Assembly (NCBI GenBank): GCA_025937035.1
Contig: JAICSG010000030.1
Location: forward strand, 1-14,090
DNA length: 14,090 nt
Source of the DNA: Thermoanaerobaculia bacterium
Lineage (GTDB): Bacteria > Acidobacteriota > Thermoanaerobaculia > Multivoradales > UBA5704
Direction: 5' to 3'
Part shown: positions 4,501 through 13,575 of the stretch, one piece after another
Layout: each line of letters opens with the position of its first letter
Position numbering within the stretch: position 1 is the first letter of the stretch
Notes under the pieces: model-generated
Told to the model about the DNA's origin: nothing
The model's database searches: none
Seen by the model: only the letters and a program-made list of their open reading frames with translations
Program-made: the position numbers and the translations under genes

Positions 4501-4717
4501 GGCTTCGGCGCTCGGGCTCGCCGCCGCGGCCCTCGAAGCGCGGCTCGCCCTGGGAGAGGTACAGCGCGGTGCCGGCGATCCGGGGGCCGGCGCCACCCTC
4601 GCCGCCGTCCGCAAGGAGGCCGAGACCCGCGGCTTCAAGCGGGTGGCCCTGGCCGCCGGCCCCGCCGCTAGCGCTCCGGGCTCGACGCTCCCGCGGATGC
4701 CGGTTTCGGCGGGGTGA
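1565..4717 (+). CDS. Winged-helix / TM / TolB-like / TPR one-component regulator
   Basis: The protein has 1050 residues. Residues about 12-108 are an OmpR/PhoB-type winged helix (ITPKAFSILAALLERPGEVV, then TEANLTQNIFSLRKCLGE and a Y(I/M)xTVPGQGYMF-type wing). A Pro/Ala-rich linker (about 120-170) leads to one TM helix at about 174-196 (after RWRR). Residues about 215-350 resemble the TolB N-terminal/FlgO fold (KAIAVLDFKSL; LGADLVVVGSY). The rest, to about 1010, is a long array of tetratricopeptide repeats. The layout is CadC-like: cytoplasmic DNA-binding head, periplasmic sensor/scaffold. Such proteins are very common in Acidobacteriota. Start choice is open: ATG 1565 has no Shine-Dalgarno, while GTG 1595 or TTG 1598 follow an AGGAAAAGGA purine run (1581-1590). 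Both alternatives keep the whole winged helix. The 3' end overlaps the convergent peptidase gene by 50 nt. Target genes are unknown. Confidence 0.88.
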   Translation: MIARPEEKERVLYEFDAFRVDPVRRVLLRDGEPVSITPKAFSILAALLERPGEVVEKADLLEKVWPGAFVTEANLTQNIFSLRKCLGERANDNRYIVTVPGQGYMFAGDLRRTERASTSEIPILVETPAAAPADPPVTATSFPVTPEPFPALPPTGEITIVAPLPAPPAPRWRRALAWTAWAVAAALVIVTAAHILKHLGSQASKTPREAASVRKAIAVLDFKSLSPSSDTRWLESAIAEMLTTELAASGKMRVIRGDTVAQAMRSLALRDPGSLGPADLQRLHDTLGADLVVVGSYLPFEGKIRVDLRVLEIPDGDTVTSLAQVGTQNSLFDLMSRTGESLRQSLGVTAVSEEQVRAARALRPSSSESSRFYTEGLKALRAFDSPGALRSLQQAVEIDPKSAVIHSALSQVWTALGYDARATDEARKALELAGSLSREERLVIEGQLYRASKEWGKAIEAYRSLWTFFPDDVEHGLQLVDCLTMGGRGTEAASTIAALRKLPPPAGQDPRIDVAEAKSSRRLADYATQLRAAQAAAAKARQSGQSLVLSQALIYQGDALVRVGKPQEAIPLFQESGEMAKKAGYQWGIGMALANLGGTYQGLGDLDASEKANTEALDIAQRLGSGLAIGNQLFALGQLHQARGELSEAFRMLEESYGWYVRIGDRLLQSSALSSAGEVLCAQGDLVGARQRFERAIALSQALSNRAHEANALDKLGSVLEAQGELAEARRRHEDAFFLLHRLGDASAAAGALAGSASVSGQLGDLHTAWQRATQALASTRQVGDRLGAGRILGLRAWLAYQMGDLAASRENAQEELQIARQTGAKPVSVLALQSLGHTDFAAGDTEKARGELEEALRVCSSLGNELRAMEIRLDLAEIALAGNQASEASQLARQAAAWYREHGIPGSEAKALSLLAEAQLRQGLSKEALAAAEQARNRLDTSEDRELRIVAGIRLARIQAATGHAAEALRQLRRAADEASALGLAAAALEARLALGEVQRGAGDPGAGATLAAVRKEAETRGFKRVALAAGPAASAPGSTLPRMPVSAG

Positions 4718-6866
4718 TCCCCATCTCCCGCAGCAGCGGCTCCGCCGCCTTACCGTGGAGAGCCTCCATCAGCCAGAGCATGTAGCGCACGTCCACGCTG
4801 ATGTTGCGGGCCACGTCCGGGTTGTAGCCGAAGTCGTTGGCCACGTTCTCCCAGACGCGGTCGAAATTCACGCCCACCAGCTCGCCGCGGCCGTTGACCA
4901 CCGGGCTGCCGGAGTTGCCGCCGGTGGTGTCCGCGTCGGCCAGGAAGTCGACCGGCACGTCCTTGAGCTTCGGATCCGCCCAGCGGCTCGCGGGGGCCTT
5001 GGGAGCCGCGGCCAGCAGCTCGGCGGGCGCCGCGAAGGGCTCCTCGCCCGTGTTCTTCTCGACCACGCCGCCCACGGTCGTCTGCGGCGTCATCCAGACG
5101 CCGTCGCGCGGGGCGTACCCCCGCACGCGGGCGAAGGAGACACGCAGGGTGCCGTTGGCGTCCGGGGCCACCGGCTTGCCGGCGTGGGCGATCACCGCCC
5201 GCTGCCAGCGGGGGCGCAGGCGCGAGACGGCGCCCAGGAAGCGGTCCTCCCGCTCCTTGAGAGCGCGCAGCTCGCGGTCGAGCGCGAAGGCGAGGTCGAG
5301 CAGCGGATCGTGGCGGGCGCGGAGCTGCGCCTCACTCTCCTCGAACATCCGTTTGCGCTCCGCCAGGTCGGTGACCTTGGTGTGAGCGAGGAGATCGTCC
5401 GCCCGGGGCCGGATCGCCGCGCGGTCGCGGGCACCGCCGAGGAGGCTCTCCACGGCCGGCACGCGGCTCGCCTCCGGCAGGGCGGCGAAGCGGGCGAGGA
5501 CGTCGGTGAGCAGGGCGGCCTCGGTCGGCGGATCGAGCCGCTTCTGGTCGCGCTCCAGCCGCTCGGCCAGCCGCTCGCGGTTGCGCTCCTGATAGTCCGG
5601 GTCCCGCTCCAGGTCCGGCTTCGCCTTCTCCCCGGCCCAGCGCGCCAGGGTGAGCGCCAGGTCGAGCGGCTTGGGGCCGGACTTCATCTGATTCAGCAGG
5701 AAATCTCGGTCCCACGTGGCCCGCCGCTCGGCGATCAGCCGCGCCAGCTCGTCGTGCGCGGCCACGGCCTCCTTCTGCTCCGGCCGCTTCGCCGCCCAGG
5801 CGAGGATCTCCTTCTCCGATGCCGTCTTCTTCTCCAGGATCTTGCCGCGGCGGATGCCGGCCACCTGCCCGCGTGAGTTCTTCTCGTTGTTGGCCAGGCC
5901 CTTGATGCGGTCGGCAAGCGCGATGCGTACCGCGTCATCCCTCTTCGAGGCGGCCTCCATCAGGTCGATCCAGGCGCGGTAGAGCTCGGCCCGCCGCGGA
6001 TAGAAGAGCTCGGCCCGCTCCCGCATCTCGGCCTCGGTATACGAGCGGAACGTCAGGCCCGGGTACCCCGCGACCATCACGAAGCCGTCCGGCTCGATGC
6101 CGCGCGGCGCCACCGGGAAGAAGTGCCGCGGCCGGTAGGGCACGTTGGCGTCCCCCTTGGGCGCCGGCTTGCCGTCCGGGCCGGTGTAGACGCGCAGCAG
6201 GGCGAAATCCCCCACGTGGCGGGGCCAGCTCCAGTTGTCGATCTCGCCCCCGTAATCGCCCACGGCGCGCGGCGGGGCATAGACCAGCCGCACGTCCGGG
6301 AGCTCCAGGCTGTCGACCAGCACATAGCGCAGGCCGCCGTCGAACGCCGCCACCTGGCAGCGGTGGTGCTCGGCCTTCTCGCACTCCGCGACCATCTCCT
6401 TCTGCTTGCGCTCGATGGCCCGGAAGCGCGCCAGGTCGTCGGCGCCGGCGGGCACCGCGGCCTCCACCTCGCGGGTGACGTCGGTCAGGCGGTGGGGGAG
6501 GGTGGCGCGGACACCCGAGCCGGGGAGCTCCTCGGCCGGTGTGCGGGCCAGGAAGCCGTGCGTGATCAGGTCGCGCTCCGGGGTCGAATGCTGCTGGAGG
6601 ATCGAGAACGCGCAGTGATGGTTGGTGATCATCAGCCCCTGGGCGGAGATGAACCCGGCCGAGCACCCGTCGATCCGCACCGCCGCCTCCAGCAGGCCGG
6701 CGCCGTCCTTGGTCCACAGCTTCTGCGGCGGGATCTCCAGGCCCAGCTTCCGAAGCCACTGCGGATCGTGCTCCAACACCTGCTCGGGGGTCCACTTTCC
6801 TTCCACGGCGAACGCTCCTGACGCGGCCAAAAGGCCGAGGGTGAATGCGATGGCGGGGAGTTTCAT
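4668..6866 (-). CDS. S46 family dipeptidyl-peptidase, DPP11-like
   Basis: The protein has 732 residues, normal for S46 exopeptidases (about 700-730), which remove dipeptides from peptide N-termini in the periplasm. The start at 6866 gives a clean signal peptide (MKLPAIAFTLGLLAASGAFA, cleavage after Ala20); the in-frame ATG at 6917 adds residues that lie in the repeat hairpin and spoil the signal. The catalytic triad is visible: His84 in TNHHC, Asp220 in PRHVGDF, Ser652 in GGNSGSP. Arg670 lies 18 residues after the serine, as Arg673 does after Ser655 in Porphyromonas DPP11; DPP7 has Gly there. This predicts cleavage after Asp/Glu at P1. A helical insert fills about 290-560. It is convergent with the TPR regulator (50-nt overlap). 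It probably serves peptide scavenging. Family certain, specificity inferred. Confidence 0.93.
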   Translation of the reverse strand: MKLPAIAFTLGLLAASGAFAVEGKWTPEQVLEHDPQWLRKLGLEIPPQKLWTKDGAGLLEAAVRIDGCSAGFISAQGLMITNHHCAFSILQQHSTPERDLITHGFLARTPAEELPGSGVRATLPHRLTDVTREVEAAVPAGADDLARFRAIERKQKEMVAECEKAEHHRCQVAAFDGGLRYVLVDSLELPDVRLVYAPPRAVGDYGGEIDNWSWPRHVGDFALLRVYTGPDGKPAPKGDANVPYRPRHFFPVAPRGIEPDGFVMVAGYPGLTFRSYTEAEMRERAELFYPRRAELYRAWIDLMEAASKRDDAVRIALADRIKGLANNEKNSRGQVAGIRRGKILEKKTASEKEILAWAAKRPEQKEAVAAHDELARLIAERRATWDRDFLLNQMKSGPKPLDLALTLARWAGEKAKPDLERDPDYQERNRERLAERLERDQKRLDPPTEAALLTDVLARFAALPEASRVPAVESLLGGARDRAAIRPRADDLLAHTKVTDLAERKRMFEESEAQLRARHDPLLDLAFALDRELRALKEREDRFLGAVSRLRPRWQRAVIAHAGKPVAPDANGTLRVSFARVRGYAPRDGVWMTPQTTVGGVVEKNTGEEPFAAPAELLAAAPKAPASRWADPKLKDVPVDFLADADTTGGNSGSPVVNGRGELVGVNFDRVWENVANDFGYNPDVARNISVDVRYMLWLMEALHGKAAEPLLREMGITPPKPASAGASSPER

Positions 6867-6874
6867 GGCGCGGG

Positions 6875-6880
6875 AGTGTA
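6875..6880 (-). promoter_or_regulatory. -10 hexamer (TACACT) of the S46 gene, leaderless position
   Basis: Read on the minus strand, TACACT ends 8 nt before the ATG at 6866, which places the expected transcript start at about 6868. No Shine-Dalgarno is present between it and the ATG. No clear -35 is seen. The same spacing recurs before the MerR-TPR, Ku and GNAT genes. Confidence 0.45.
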
Positions 6881-6900
6881 CCGTAGGAGAGACGCCGGCG

Positions 6901-6975
6901 AGGGACAACAGAGACAACAGGGACGAGGAGAAGGCTCCGGGCCTTTTCCCCGTCCCTGATGTCCCTGCTGTCCCT
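6901..6975 (-). repeat. 75-nt hairpin made of 9-nt GTCCCTGnT / AGGGACnnC repeats
   Basis: Two 25-nt arms (6901-6925 and 6951-6975) are inverted repeats, each built of about three 9-nt units (AGGGACAGC, AGGGACATC, AGGGACG on the minus strand). Two further AGGGAC copies lie at 6976-6990. The 25-nt centre also folds on itself (ten positions per side, loop CCGGA). In minus-strand RNA I count a 35-bp stem with two mismatches (U-U and A-C) and three G-U wobbles; in plus-strand RNA those wobbles become C-A mismatches. It lies between the secreted orphan's stop (6998) and the S46 promoter, so it could act as a 3' stabiliser or terminator, although no U-tract follows. It may also be a dispersed REP-like element. 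Confidence 0.8.
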
Positions 6976-9345: not shown

Positions 9346-10239
9346 TTATCTCTTTGAGCTCTTTCTTTTCGGTGCCTCGGAAATTTCCGCCACGGGCTCG
9401 GCCGCGGTGCGCGCGGAGCGCTTCGCCGGCTTGCGGTCGGCGATCGAGACCGGCTCCGCCGTGGGCTTGGCCGCGGCGAGGCTCGCCTTGAGCGCGGCCA
9501 TCAGATCGATCACCTGCGCCTTCGGCTCCGGCGCCGGCGCGGCGGTGATCTCCTCGCCCTGCACCTTGCGCTCGATCAGCGACCGCACCTGCATGCGCTG
9601 GGTGTCCTCGTAGGTCTCGGGGTGGAACTCGTCGGTGGCGATCTGCTCGATGAGCTGGATGGCCAGCTTGAGCTCCGGCTCCTTGACCTCGGCCGTACCC
9701 ACCGGCACCTCGGAGAACGACCGCAGCTCGTCCGAATAGCGGAGCTGCTGCATGATCAGCCCCTCCTCGAACGGCCGCAACAGCACGAACTGATCCTTGC
9801 CGCGGGCCACGTAGCGGGCCAGCGCCGCCCGGTTCGTCTGCTTCATCGCCTCGGCCAGCAGACGGTAGGGCTTGTCGCCCCCCTTGTCCGGACCGATGTA
9901 GAAGGACTTCTCGTAATAGATCGGATCGACCTGCTCGAGGGGCACGAACTCGGTGATCTCCACCGCATTGGTGGGCTCCGGAACCAGAGCCTTCAGCTCT
10001 TCTTCCGTAAAGAGAACATATTGGCCCTTCGAGTACTCATAACCCTTGACCATATCTTCTCTTCCCACGACCTCGTTGTCGACAGGGCAGATGTATTGTT
10101 GCTTCAATCGGGATCTGCACTTCTTGTGCAGCATGTTAAATTGGATGCCAGCCGCGCTTTCTCCCGTGGAATAAAGCTTCATCGGGATCGTGACGAGGCC
10201 AAATGAGATCATTCCGGAGGCGAAGGGTCGGGCGCTCAT
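9346..10239 (-). CDS. ku: Bacterial Ku, NHEJ DNA-end-binding protein
   Basis: The protein has 297 residues, normal for bacterial Ku, which forms a homodimeric ring on double-strand break ends and recruits LigD. The N-terminus shows the family opening (FASGMISFGLVTIPMKLYS), followed by NMLHKKCRSRLKQQYICP with Cys41 and Cys51 and a KGYEYSKGQYV strand. ARGKDQFVLLRPFEEGLIMQQLRYSDE (145-171) is the conserved core beta/bridge region, and VIDLMAALKASL (243-254) is the typical C-terminal helix. Residues 257-297 are a Lys/Arg/Ala tail, expected to contact DNA. The start at 10239 matches the family N-terminus and sits right behind an extended -10. Codons 1 to about 93 are clearly AT-richer than the rest. 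It is divergent from ligD across 117 nt, with MerR-TPR 24 nt downstream. Confidence 0.97.
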   Translation of the reverse strand: MSARPFASGMISFGLVTIPMKLYSTGESAAGIQFNMLHKKCRSRLKQQYICPVDNEVVGREDMVKGYEYSKGQYVLFTEEELKALVPEPTNAVEITEFVPLEQVDPIYYEKSFYIGPDKGGDKPYRLLAEAMKQTNRAALARYVARGKDQFVLLRPFEEGLIMQQLRYSDELRSFSEVPVGTAEVKEPELKLAIQLIEQIATDEFHPETYEDTQRMQVRSLIERKVQGEEITAAPAPEPKAQVIDLMAALKASLAAAKPTAEPVSIADRKPAKRSARTAAEPVAEISEAPKRKSSKR

Positions 10240-10356
10240 AAGGCGTAATATAACATCGAATCGCTTTGCCGGAGCGTATTTACCAGGAATTGATCACTTC
10301 GAATCACAACGTTCGGTCTCGATATCCATTTAACCTTTCCAGGTGATTTTCCCGCA
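10240..10356. promoter_or_regulatory. AT-rich divergent control region between ku and ligD
   Basis: This 117-nt gap carries the ku extended -10 (10247-10255). Towards ligD there is a weak TAACCT hexamer (10331-10336) and AGGTGA (10341-10346), a ribosome site 10 nt before the TTG start. Short related words occur: TCGAATC twice (near 10256 and 10299), a TGATCA palindrome (10291-10296), and AATCAC/GTGATT as an inverted pair (about 10303-10308 and 10343-10348). They could be operator parts, but none is a strong long palindrome. Confidence 0.45.
10247..10255 (-). promoter_or_regulatory. Extended -10 promoter (TGTTATATT) of ku
   Basis: Read on the minus strand, TG-T-TATATT is an extended -10 motif, which can work without a good -35 (none is seen). 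It ends 7 nt before the ATG, so transcription would begin at 10240 or 10239 and give a leaderless ku mRNA. The surrounding gap 10240-10356 is about half AT. Confidence 0.5.
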
Positions 10357-12306
10357 TTGAAAGCGAGCGTCAAATCACGCAAAGCCGGAACCGGTCCGGA
10401 GCGCGAAATCCGCGCCGAGCTCGCGCGCCTCGGCGCACCCCGGGCGGCGGTCGATCCGGAGGCCCTGCGGCCGATGAAGCCGGAGACCGCCGACCGCCCG
10501 TTCAGCCGTCCGGGCTGGGTCTTCGAGCTCAAGTACGACGGCTTCCGCATGATCGCCGCGGGAGGAGCGGGGGAGGCGCGGCTGTTCTACAAGAGCGGCG
10601 CCGACGCCACCCGGATCTTCCCCGAGCTCGCCCGGGCCGTGGCCGCCCTGCCGTTCCAGGGGGTGATCCTGGACGGCGAGGCCGTGGTGCTCGACGAGCA
10701 GGGGAAGCCCAGCTTCCAGCGTCTGCAGCGGCGGGGGCTGCGCACCCGGCTGGCCGACGTCCAGCACGCCGCCGCGGCGAGCCCCGCCACGCTCTTCGTC
10801 TTCGACCTCCTGGGCTTCGAGGATTTCGACCTCCGGCCGCTGCCGCTCCACGCCCGGCGGGAGATCCTGCGCCGGGTGCTCCCGACCGGCGGGGACTGGC
10901 TCCGCCTCTCCGACGAGATCCCCGAGCGCGGCGAGGACCTCTACGCCGCCGTGGCCGGTATGGGGCTGGAGGGGATCGTCGCCAAGCGGGCCGACTCCCC
11001 CTACCGCGCCGGCTATTCGGCGGACTGGCTGAAGGTACGGGTGGATCAGAGCTCCGACTTCGCCGTGATCGGCTTCGAGAGCCCCTCGGGGCTGCGCCGG
11101 CTCCATCTCGCGGTGCGGGACGGCGACGGGCTGGCCTACGCCGGCACGGTGGGCACCGGCTTCAACCGCGAGGACGACAGGGAGATCCGCGCCCGGCTCG
11201 AGCCCCTCCGCCGCGCCGCGCCGGCCGTGCCGGTGGGCGACGTCCGCGGCGCCGTCTGGGTCGAGCCCGAGATGGTGGTCGAGGTGCGCTACAAGGAATG
11301 GACCGAAGGGGGGAGCCTGCGCCAGCCCGTCTTCCTGCGCGTCCGCGACGACAAGACCGCCGAAGAGTGTTTCCGTCCGGGGGAGGAGCGCGAGGAGGAG
11401 GAGGAGATCGTGGCCGCGGACCCCACGCCCAGAATCAAGCTCACCAACCTCGACAAGGTCTTCTGGCCGGACGAGGGCTACACCAAGGGCGATCTGATCG
11501 ACTACTACCGCGCCGCCGCTCCCTGGATGCTGCCGTTCCTGCGCGACCGCCCGCTGGTGCTCGACCGCTATCCGAACGGCATCACCGGCAAGTCCTTCTT
11601 CCAGAAGAACGCGCCGGAGAAGGCGCCCCCCCAGTTGCGCACGCTCAAGCTCCAGAGCGAGGAGCGGGAGATCGACTACATCCTCTGCGACGACGCCGAC
11701 GGGCTGCTCTATCTGGTGAATCTGGGGGCGATCCCCTTCCACGTCTGGTCGAGCCGGGTGGAAGCGATCGACCGGCCGGACTGGTGCATCCTGGACCTCG
11801 ATCCGAAGACGGCCCCCTTCGCCCACGTGGTGCGCATCGCGCTCGCCATCCGCGAGCTGTGCGAGGAGATCGGGATCACCCCCTACATTAAGACGAGCGG
11901 CGGCAGCGGCCTGCACATCCTGCTTCCCATGGGGAGGCGGCTCACCCACGAGCCGGTCCGCCAATTCGCCGAGCTGCTGGCGGGGGTGATCGTCCGCCGC
12001 CTGCCCGACATCGCGACCACGGCGCGCTCGATCCCGGCCCGCCGCGGCCGGGTCTACGTGGACGCCCTCCAGAACGGCCGCGGCAAGCTCCTGGCCGCTC
12101 CCTACTGCGTCCGCCCCCGCCCCGGCGCCACCGTCTCGACCCCGCTCGACTGGAAAGAGGTCAACAGCAAGCTGGACCCGGGCGCCTTCACCCTGAAGAC
12201 CGTGCCGGAACGGCTCCGCAAGCGGAAGAGCGATCCGCTGCTACCGGTGATGGAGGAGCAGCCGGATCTGGAGCGGGTGGTGGCGGTGCTGTCGGAGAAG
12301 CTGTAG
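10357..12306 (+). CDS. ligD: LigD, ATP-dependent DNA ligase/polymerase (LIG-POL, no PE domain)
   Basis: The protein has 649 residues. The N-terminal ligase domain (about 35-340) has motif I ELKYDGFR with the adenylated Lys59, motif III FVFDLLGFEDFDL (148-159), motif IV EGIVAKR (205-211) and motif V WLKVR (224-228). An acidic linker (EEREEEEE, 343-350) leads to the polymerase/primase domain (about 358-640), with metal-binding Asp480 and Asp482 in LDLDP, SGGSGLH (514-520) and Asp569 in VYVDALQN. It fills gaps and seals ends held by Ku in non-homologous end joining. The 3'-phosphoesterase domain present in Mycobacterium and Pseudomonas LigD is absent. TTG 10357 is the only plausible start codon after the in-frame stop at 10291 and before the ligase domain, and AGGTGA sits 10 nt upstream. 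It is divergent from ku; a GNAT gene follows after 9 nt. Confidence 0.96.
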   Translation: MKASVKSRKAGTGPEREIRAELARLGAPRAAVDPEALRPMKPETADRPFSRPGWVFELKYDGFRMIAAGGAGEARLFYKSGADATRIFPELARAVAALPFQGVILDGEAVVLDEQGKPSFQRLQRRGLRTRLADVQHAAAASPATLFVFDLLGFEDFDLRPLPLHARREILRRVLPTGGDWLRLSDEIPERGEDLYAAVAGMGLEGIVAKRADSPYRAGYSADWLKVRVDQSSDFAVIGFESPSGLRRLHLAVRDGDGLAYAGTVGTGFNREDDREIRARLEPLRRAAPAVPVGDVRGAVWVEPEMVVEVRYKEWTEGGSLRQPVFLRVRDDKTAEECFRPGEEREEEEEIVAADPTPRIKLTNLDKVFWPDEGYTKGDLIDYYRAAAPWMLPFLRDRPLVLDRYPNGITGKSFFQKNAPEKAPPQLRTLKLQSEEREIDYILCDDADGLLYLVNLGAIPFHVWSSRVEAIDRPDWCILDLDPKTAPFAHVVRIALAIRELCEEIGITPYIKTSGGSGLHILLPMGRRLTHEPVRQFAELLAGVIVRRLPDIATTARSIPARRGRVYVDALQNGRGKLLAAPYCVRPRPGATVSTPLDWKEVNSKLDPGAFTLKTVPERLRKRKSDPLLPVMEEQPDLERVVAVLSEKL

Positions 12307-12908: not shown

Positions 12909-12914
12909 AGGAGG
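12909..12914 (+). promoter_or_regulatory. Strong ribosome binding site of the UGA-containing DsbA gene
   Basis: AGGAGG lies 7 nt before the ATG at 12922. It is the best Shine-Dalgarno in the window and fixes the start of the thioredoxin-fold gene upstream of its internal TGA, showing that the region before the TGA is meant to be translated. Confidence 0.8.
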
Positions 12915-12921
12915 ATCGATC

Positions 12922-13575
12922 ATGACGGTTAACGTTCGTGACATCTCCCCTTGGTTGCTCGCTGCGGGGCTCGTCCTCGCCCTCGGCCCGCAATCCTGGG
13001 CGCATGCCCAGATCGGGCGCAAGATCTCCGTGGGGGATTACCCGTCCATGAAGGAGGGCTCGCCTGGGCTCGTCCTCATTGAGGTTTCGGACTTCCAGTG
13101 ACCGTACTGCGGCCAGAGCGCCCGTGAGGTGCTCCCGCAAATCGACGAGAAATTCATTGAGACCGGCAAGGTCGAGCTCGTCTTTCTCGACCTGCCTCTG
13201 CAGATGCATTCGAACGCTTTCAAGGCCGCGGAGGCGGCGGCGTGCGCGGGCGATCAGAAAAAGTTCTGGGAGATGCACAATCTCCTGTTCATCCATCAAC
13301 ATGAGCTGGCTCCGGAGCAGCTTTCAGGGTACGCCCAGACGATCGAGCTGGACCTCCCGGCCTTCCAGAAGTGCCTCTCCAGCGGGCGCCACGAGGGAGA
13401 GATCCGCGGCAGCATCCGACTGGCCAACAGCCTTGGCATCACCGGCACTCCGGCCTACGTGCTCGCGCGCAGAATTCCGGGCGGCGACAAGGTCCAGGTC
13501 CTGGAAATCGTCCATGGCGTGCGGCCGTACGAGGAGCTGGAGAAAAAGATCAACGCTCTTCTGGCCTCGAAGTAG
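12922..13575 (+). CDS. Exported DsbA-like selenoprotein, active site UPYC (in-frame TGA at 13099-13101)
   Basis: Read through the TGA, this is a 217-residue thioredoxin-fold protein of the DsbA/Thioredoxin_4 type. A signal peptide (hydrophobic 11-22, cleavage near AHA-Q at 29) exports it. Then come VLIEVSDFQ-U60-PYC63, the usual 'DFxCPYC' active site with TGA in place of the first Cys codon, the helical insert (AFKAAEAAACAGDQKKFWEMHNLLF, 99-123) and the cis-Pro loop GTPAY (175-179). Everything on both sides is in frame and family-like, and the TGA is the only stop. Selenocysteine at the attacking Cys is known in DsbA-like selenoproteins. A hairpin follows the TGA at 13108-13139. It would catalyse thiol-disulfide exchange in the periplasm. 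Alternatives are a nonsense mutation or a sequencing error. A start at GTG 13129 would lack the signal and the active site. DUF1330 follows after 23 nt. Confidence 0.85.
13108..13139 (+). promoter_or_regulatory. Candidate bacterial SECIS hairpin after the Sec UGA
   Basis: Six nt after the TGA, TGCGG (13108-13112) pairs with CCGCA (13135-13139). After a 3-nt bulge (CCA), GAGCGCC (13116-13122) pairs with GGTGCTC (13128-13134), one pair being G-U. The loop is CGUGA. The upper stem begins 14 nt after the UGA, close to the roughly 11-nt spacing in E. coli fdhF, and the loop contains G residues, as SelB binding needs. The bulged U of the E. coli element is not obvious, but bSECIS sequences vary widely. 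It lies within coding sequence. Confidence 0.6.

Follow-up and report, generated by a model that had tools for sequence, protein, structure and literature searches.

A predicted exported DsbA-like selenoprotein with a UPYC active site in a Thermoanaerobaculia genome bin

Does the in-frame TGA of a DsbA-like gene from a soil bacterium of the Thermoanaerobaculia specify selenocysteine (Sec), or does it terminate a broken reading frame? The gene lies in a stretch of 14,090 nucleotides (the window, contig C1043 in our numbering) of a genome bin of 5.69 Mb in 1254 contigs, which is 93.75% complete and 4.01% contaminated. We consider it highly probable that it encodes an exported DsbA-like oxidoreductase with a Sec nucleophile, and that its UGA is recoded via tRNA-Sec and a downstream hairpin. 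The position of the codon, its conservation, the fold, the hairpin and the presence of selA, selC and selD were established by computation. The same window carries genes for Ku and a LigD-type ligase-polymerase, a divergently transcribed bacterial NHEJ pair (9346-12306), and, on the minus strand, a gene for a Peptidase S46 (4668-6917).

Reading frame and fold of the product

The initial annotation had named a ribosome-binding site, a start, a single in-frame TGA and a TAG stop, all of which were read directly from the sequence (Table 1). The TGA, codon 60 of a read-through product of 217 residues, is the only one in frame between 12922 and 13575 and takes the first Cys position of the active site (VSDFQ-U-PYC). 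The signal peptide claimed to precede it is likely as well, as a hydrophobic N-terminus is present; cleavage would be expected after its terminal AHA, and the translation shows no lipobox Cys. Using the standard code, the sole open reading frame listed in the same frame is a headless fragment, in agreement with the earlier statement that gene calling would report this fragment alone or a pseudogene.

Table 1. Features of the candidate selenoprotein gene in the window.
Feature	Position	Strand	Remarks
AGGAGG ribosome-binding site	12909..12914	+	read directly; 7 nt before ATG
Predicted DsbA-like selenoprotein gene, complete from ATG to TAG, 217 residues	12922..13575	+	frame, Pfam, AlphaFold2 model
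Start codon ATG; stop codon TAG	12922; 13573..13575	+	
Likely signal peptide, residues 1-29	12922..13008	+	judged from the translation
TGA, probably read as Sec, residue 60, first position of UPYC	13099..13101	+	Cys in 25 orthologues
Cys63, second (resolving) active-site Cys	13108..13110	+	invariant in 26 alignment rows
SECIS-like hairpin	13116..13134	+	7-bp stem, loop CGUGA (13123-13127), 21 nt after UGA
Cys108, first of second conserved Cys pair, helical domain	13243..13245	+	invariant in 26 rows
Cys151, second of the Cys108/Cys151 pair	13372..13374	+	invariant in 26 rows
Thr176-Pro177	13447..13452	+	invariant in 26 rows
148-aa fragment, standard gene-calling product	13129..13575	+	standard-code ORF list

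Pfam matches of the product to Thioredoxin_4 (2.2e-19, residues 51-180) and DSBA (1.8e-15, residues 52-209) cover both sides of the codon, which upholds the claim that the fold continues past the TGA. After base shuffling, the 157 codons 3' of the TGA stayed open in 0.9% of 2000 trials. The open frame is not a product of chance, since the Pfam matches span the TGA, shuffled sequences rarely stay open and a congener carries the same TGA (see below).

An AlphaFold2 model, for which the window protein (with C in place of U) was aligned with 25 Cys orthologues, reached a pLDDT of 89.2 and showed a thioredoxin fold with a helical insertion, the fold of DsbA. All DsbA-like features were present: this fold, a UxxC motif and a Pro loop, with Thr176-Pro177 presumably being the cis-Pro loop expected for thioredoxin folds. 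The top Foldseek matches were Wolbachia alpha-DsbA1 (3f4r), Bacillus BdbD (3eu3) and Corynebacterium DsbA (4pwo), with E-values from 4.3e-13 to 7.5e-12. These three resemble the window protein in fold; however, they are only about 20-26% identical to it and carry an active-site Cys in place of Sec. Alpha-DsbA1 also shares the second Cys pair, as Cys108 and Cys151 align with Cys residues of 3f4r. A related entry names a C97A/C146A double mutant in its title; C97 and C146 are probably the counterparts of Cys108 and Cys151, which would form a second disulfide in the window protein.

Sec genes in the bin and conservation of the TGA

The proposal of a Sec codon calls for Sec machinery in the genome, and this was found in part: selA, tRNA-Sec and selD were present, while the search for selB gave no hit in the bin. 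The tRNA-Sec with the anticodon UCA scored 70.7 bits (cut-off 47), selA 541.9 bits (cut-off 267.9) and selD 342.8 bits (cut-off 125). The selD gene (L012 1405-2457, minus strand, contig C667) is itself a selenoprotein gene with a TGA at codon 19 (TTGGUAAK), followed by a hairpin of -15.2 kcal/mol. This TGA lies in the active site; with it, the bin has another gene that depends on Sec.

Neither the model TIGR00475 nor the complete SelB of the congener G001 detected selB in our bin (G000), where the four TIGR00475 matches were IF-2 (C687, C447), LepA (C616) and EF-G (C61). With the same two queries, selB was not found in the congener G002 either, which bears a TGA copy of the gene. Among the 59 genomes of the relatives search, our own included, 54 had selB above the cut-off; the remaining five include both genomes of the genus that carry the TGA gene, G000 and G002. 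While EF-Tu of G002 gave 190 bits on the selB model, no EF-Tu-like match was obtained from our bin in this search, so that at least one universal gene is missing there. As both bins also consist of more than 1000 contigs, the absence of selB probably reflects an assembly gap. We are aware that this is the main weak point of the Sec reading. Two IF-2 pieces of our bin (C687 = L008, C447 = L143) lie at contig ends and overlap with slight differences, suggesting that mixed strains have fragmented the assembly; the contigs with selA, selC and selD are consequently tied to the organism by binning only.

A recent loss of SelB, leaving the gene and selD as relics of a former Sec trait that are now read in truncated form, would account for two TGA-bearing genomes of the genus in which selB was not found. 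It is nevertheless very unlikely: selA, tRNA-Sec and selD look intact, selB is widespread among the relatives and complete in G001, and both bins are highly fragmented, our own also lacking an EF-Tu match.

The congener G002, a separate assembly, provided a copy of the gene that is 84% identical and carries TGA at this very codon, as well as a 63% identical paralogue with Cys. In a comparison of the two TGA copies (NG86), codons 30-59 gave dN 0.015 and dS 0.268, the hairpin region 0.032 and 0.22, and the stretch downstream of the hairpin 0.118 and 0.337; in this last part the ratio of about 0.35 is only moderately low. A decayed copy in a close relative would have spoken against the initial annotation. 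The G002 copy shows no decay, with dN below dS on either side of the TGA, and the alignment column of the TGA holds Cys in the 25 orthologues and TGA in G002.

Searches reading through stops were performed on overlapping sets of 59, 396, 72 and 148 genomes. Among the matches listed, 36 from acidobacterial genomes bore a TGA, identity being 31-47% for all but the window and G002. In 35 of them, 33 besides the window and G002, the TGA took the first position of the active site. The exception, a partial match at a contig edge (G038 C243, L204 81-83), has its TGA at the Cys151 position (FDS-U-LASGKH). The sequence that follows folds with a z-score of -2.36, with a first loop that lacks G and falls outside the bSECIS limits; a further Sec codon, a genuine stop and an error are all conceivable here. 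Genome G370 holds three TGA-type copies (L156, L182, L183), two of them convergent on one contig. The gene neighbourhood was uninformative, as the contig of G002 begins with the Sec gene and the long frame after it, on the opposite strand, looks unrelated.

All informatively named orthologues among the database matches listed are labelled Thermoanaerobaculia or Acidobacteria. Fragments of exactly 148 aa, the size expected from mis-calling, were found for 3 of the 120 protein database matches listed (P0029 95%, P0044 93%, P0114 82%), and a TGA presumably precedes each of them.

The hairpin downstream of the UGA

The window RNA after the UGA folds with -20.2 kcal/mol (z-score -2.99, 2 of 200 shuffles as low), and the fold adds a lower helix (13108-13139) to the hairpin of Table 1. 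The bSECIS limits printed in the consulted part of a 2026 review (PMC13188914) are a loop of 3-9 nt with G in its first two positions, a stem of 4-16 bp, a spacing of 16-37 nt and a minimum free energy of -7.5 or lower. Applying them with our own script, not with bSECISearch, the window hairpin (7 bp, CGUGA, 21 nt, -20.2 kcal/mol) fell within all limits.

For a comparison of Sec with Cys copies, 154 rows were counted with one best segment per locus, namely 35 rows with TGA, from 34 genes of which one was entered twice, and 119 with Cys; removal of identical 48-mers left 31 TGA rows, the window included, and 119 Cys rows. Thirty-four of the 35 active-site TGA matches were counted; the one left out, L198, has the same hairpin with CGT. 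Many Cys rows stem from Cys-containing patterns and other phyla, and extra loci were chosen by hand (12 TGA, 4 Cys), so that the ratio of 31 to 119 does not reflect a frequency and relatedness differs in an unmatched way between the sets. A bSECIS-type hairpin was found by our script in 28 of the 31 Sec copies, 3 missing the limits, in 21 of 119 Cys copies and in 30% of 930 shuffles (Fisher p 5e-14, uncorrected for relatedness). Arg at position +8 was shared by 23 of the 31 TGA rows and 23 of the 119 Cys rows, and within this subset the hairpin was found in 20 of 23 Sec versus 6 of 23 Cys copies.

Clear differences became visible for the pairing of the 5-bp stem in the Arg subset. It was paired in 95.7% of cells in the TGA copies (0 of 500 shuffles as high) versus 54.8% in the Cys copies (87 of 500), with covariation scores of 0.262 (0 of 500) and 0.229 (89 of 500), respectively. 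Two-sided changes affected four of the five pairs in both sets, a value reached by none of 500 shuffles for Sec and by 335 of 500 for Cys; further pair types in the Sec set showed no excess over shuffles (249 of 500). RNAalifold recovered the hairpin from the Sec copies and predicted no pair for the Cys copies. The Arg codon of the loop was CGT in 21 of 23 Sec versus 1 of 23 Cys copies, although across ten genes of the window CGT accounts for 19 of 364 Arg codons. Comparing Sec and Cys copies of the same genome, CGT stood against CGC in G002 and G005; both copies of G371 use CGG and do not discriminate. The Cys paralogue of G002 lacks two of the seven pairs of the stem, in both cases through a synonymous difference; it departs from the Sec copy in the codons for the loop Arg (CGT/CGC), a stem Val (GTG/GTC) and Leu (CTC/CTG), all synonymously. 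Fold z-scores overlapped and were a weak discriminator (mean -1.15 for 23 Sec versus -0.21 for 115 Cys copies, p 0.0016), and stem-specific pairing and codon usage provide the stronger discrimination. Between the two congeneric Sec copies, the hairpin carries two synonymous changes and is not depleted of them (96 of 204 windows as low). A second acidobacterial TGA group of DsbA type (L184-L192, UPYC/UPFC-xRVGxTL), comprising 8 of the 31 distinct TGA copies, has a hairpin of 7-8 bp with a 3-nt loop (GUC, GUG or GUU) 19 nt after the UGA.

A pseudogene or sequencing error, with the Cys codon lost or misread and the gene decaying, could be suspected from a single stop in one genome bin where selB was not found. 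It is highly improbable in view of the same TGA in the congener and at the homologous position of the further matches listed, the dN below dS past the TGA, a stem pairing far above shuffles and a frame without any other stop. Decoding of the UGA as Cys or Trp through suppression or reassignment fits the Cys of the orthologues and is scarcely credible, as TGA terminates 2 of the 10 window ORFs counted, tRNA-Sec has the only UCA anticodon among six tRNA loci scanned, and a SECIS-type hairpin, selA and selD are present.

The reading of the TGA as Sec, put forward in the initial annotation, is thus supported by its active-site position, the Sec genes, the TGA-bearing congener and the hairpin. From these data we infer Sec insertion, export and the catalytic direction of the protein. 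UGA codon 60 would be recoded by tRNA-Sec, with SelB expected on the hairpin, whose CGUGA loop lies downstream at a suitable distance. The product would be an exported thiol-disulfide oxidoreductase with Sec as nucleophile, its modelled thioredoxin domain bearing the helical insertion, and U60/C63 would exchange disulfides or selenenylsulfides with substrates. The bin also holds a VKOR-family protein with CTLC, which might speculatively serve for re-oxidation.

Known relatives and the exchange of Cys and Sec

UxxC selenoproteins of the DsbA-like and DsbG-like types have been on record since 2005, and the DsbA-like protein (form 1, PF01323, UxxC) was described from the Sargasso Sea and in later surveys, as far as the consulted parts of these papers show (PMC1088965, PMC1794560, PMC13188914). 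The window protein shares with it the DSBA domain, an in-frame UGA that would place Sec first in the UxxC motif, and a predicted SECIS. The form 1 reports, in the parts consulted, concern a marine metagenome, Deltaproteobacteria, Clostridia and Asgard archaea and are set apart by their descriptions; the window protein, in contrast, falls into a clade of Acidobacteriota that has close Cys orthologues. The best NCBIfam match was NF041057 (95.3 bits, E-value 4e-27), by name a Sec/Cys family (Rcas_1661 family thioredoxin-like (seleno)lipoprotein) and the model given for the DsbG-like selenoprotein in the part consulted of the 2026 review (PMC13188914). Unlike this family, the window protein has no visible lipobox Cys and a shorter N-terminus, its match starting at profile position 91; membership was rejected, as the score stays below the 190-bit cut-off. 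The window protein is therefore a new acidobacterial member among the known DsbA-/DsbG-like UxxC selenoproteins. No description of it was found in the consulted parts of the literature on selenoproteins of Acidobacteriota and Thermoanaerobaculia, DsbA and Rcas_1661.

A quick maximum-likelihood tree was calculated from 100 chosen proteins, 46 from loci of at least 128 bits and 54 from the 120 database matches listed (25 TGA, 72 Cys, 3 headless fragments), with the active-site columns kept in. The TGA copies of the window and G002 fell within Cys orthologues, beside the fragments P0029 and P0044 and the Cys protein P0002, and distant from the other TGA copies, with moderate local supports of 82-98. 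At least seven label changes are needed on the tree, and well-supported branches force four of them. Its topology suggests a separate, fairly recent Cys-to-Sec switch in the window clade; since protein databases by construction omit full-length TGA proteins, the opposite direction, loss of an older Sec, may also apply. Conversion of Cys to Sec is a described process, with 33 events given in the part consulted of PMC1794560. We tentatively entertain, at somewhat less than even chances, that the window clade gained Sec recently from Cys, in an event unconnected with the distant acidobacterial Sec clade, and that the same SECIS with its CGUGA loop was rebuilt largely through synonymous changes.

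An exported seleno-oxidoreductase would be added to the Acidobacteriota, for which few selenoproteins are listed in the parts of the literature consulted, four in the 2006 survey (PMC1794560) and three known selenoprotein genes for Occallatibacter (PMC12013277). Some relatives probably sit in public databases as headless 148-aa fragments. With a UGA member and a Cys paralogue in one genome (G002), Sec/Cys exchange and the origin of a SECIS become testable, and if the recent gain is true, they would offer a naturally occurring, closely related pair in which to watch a SECIS arise inside a coding sequence.
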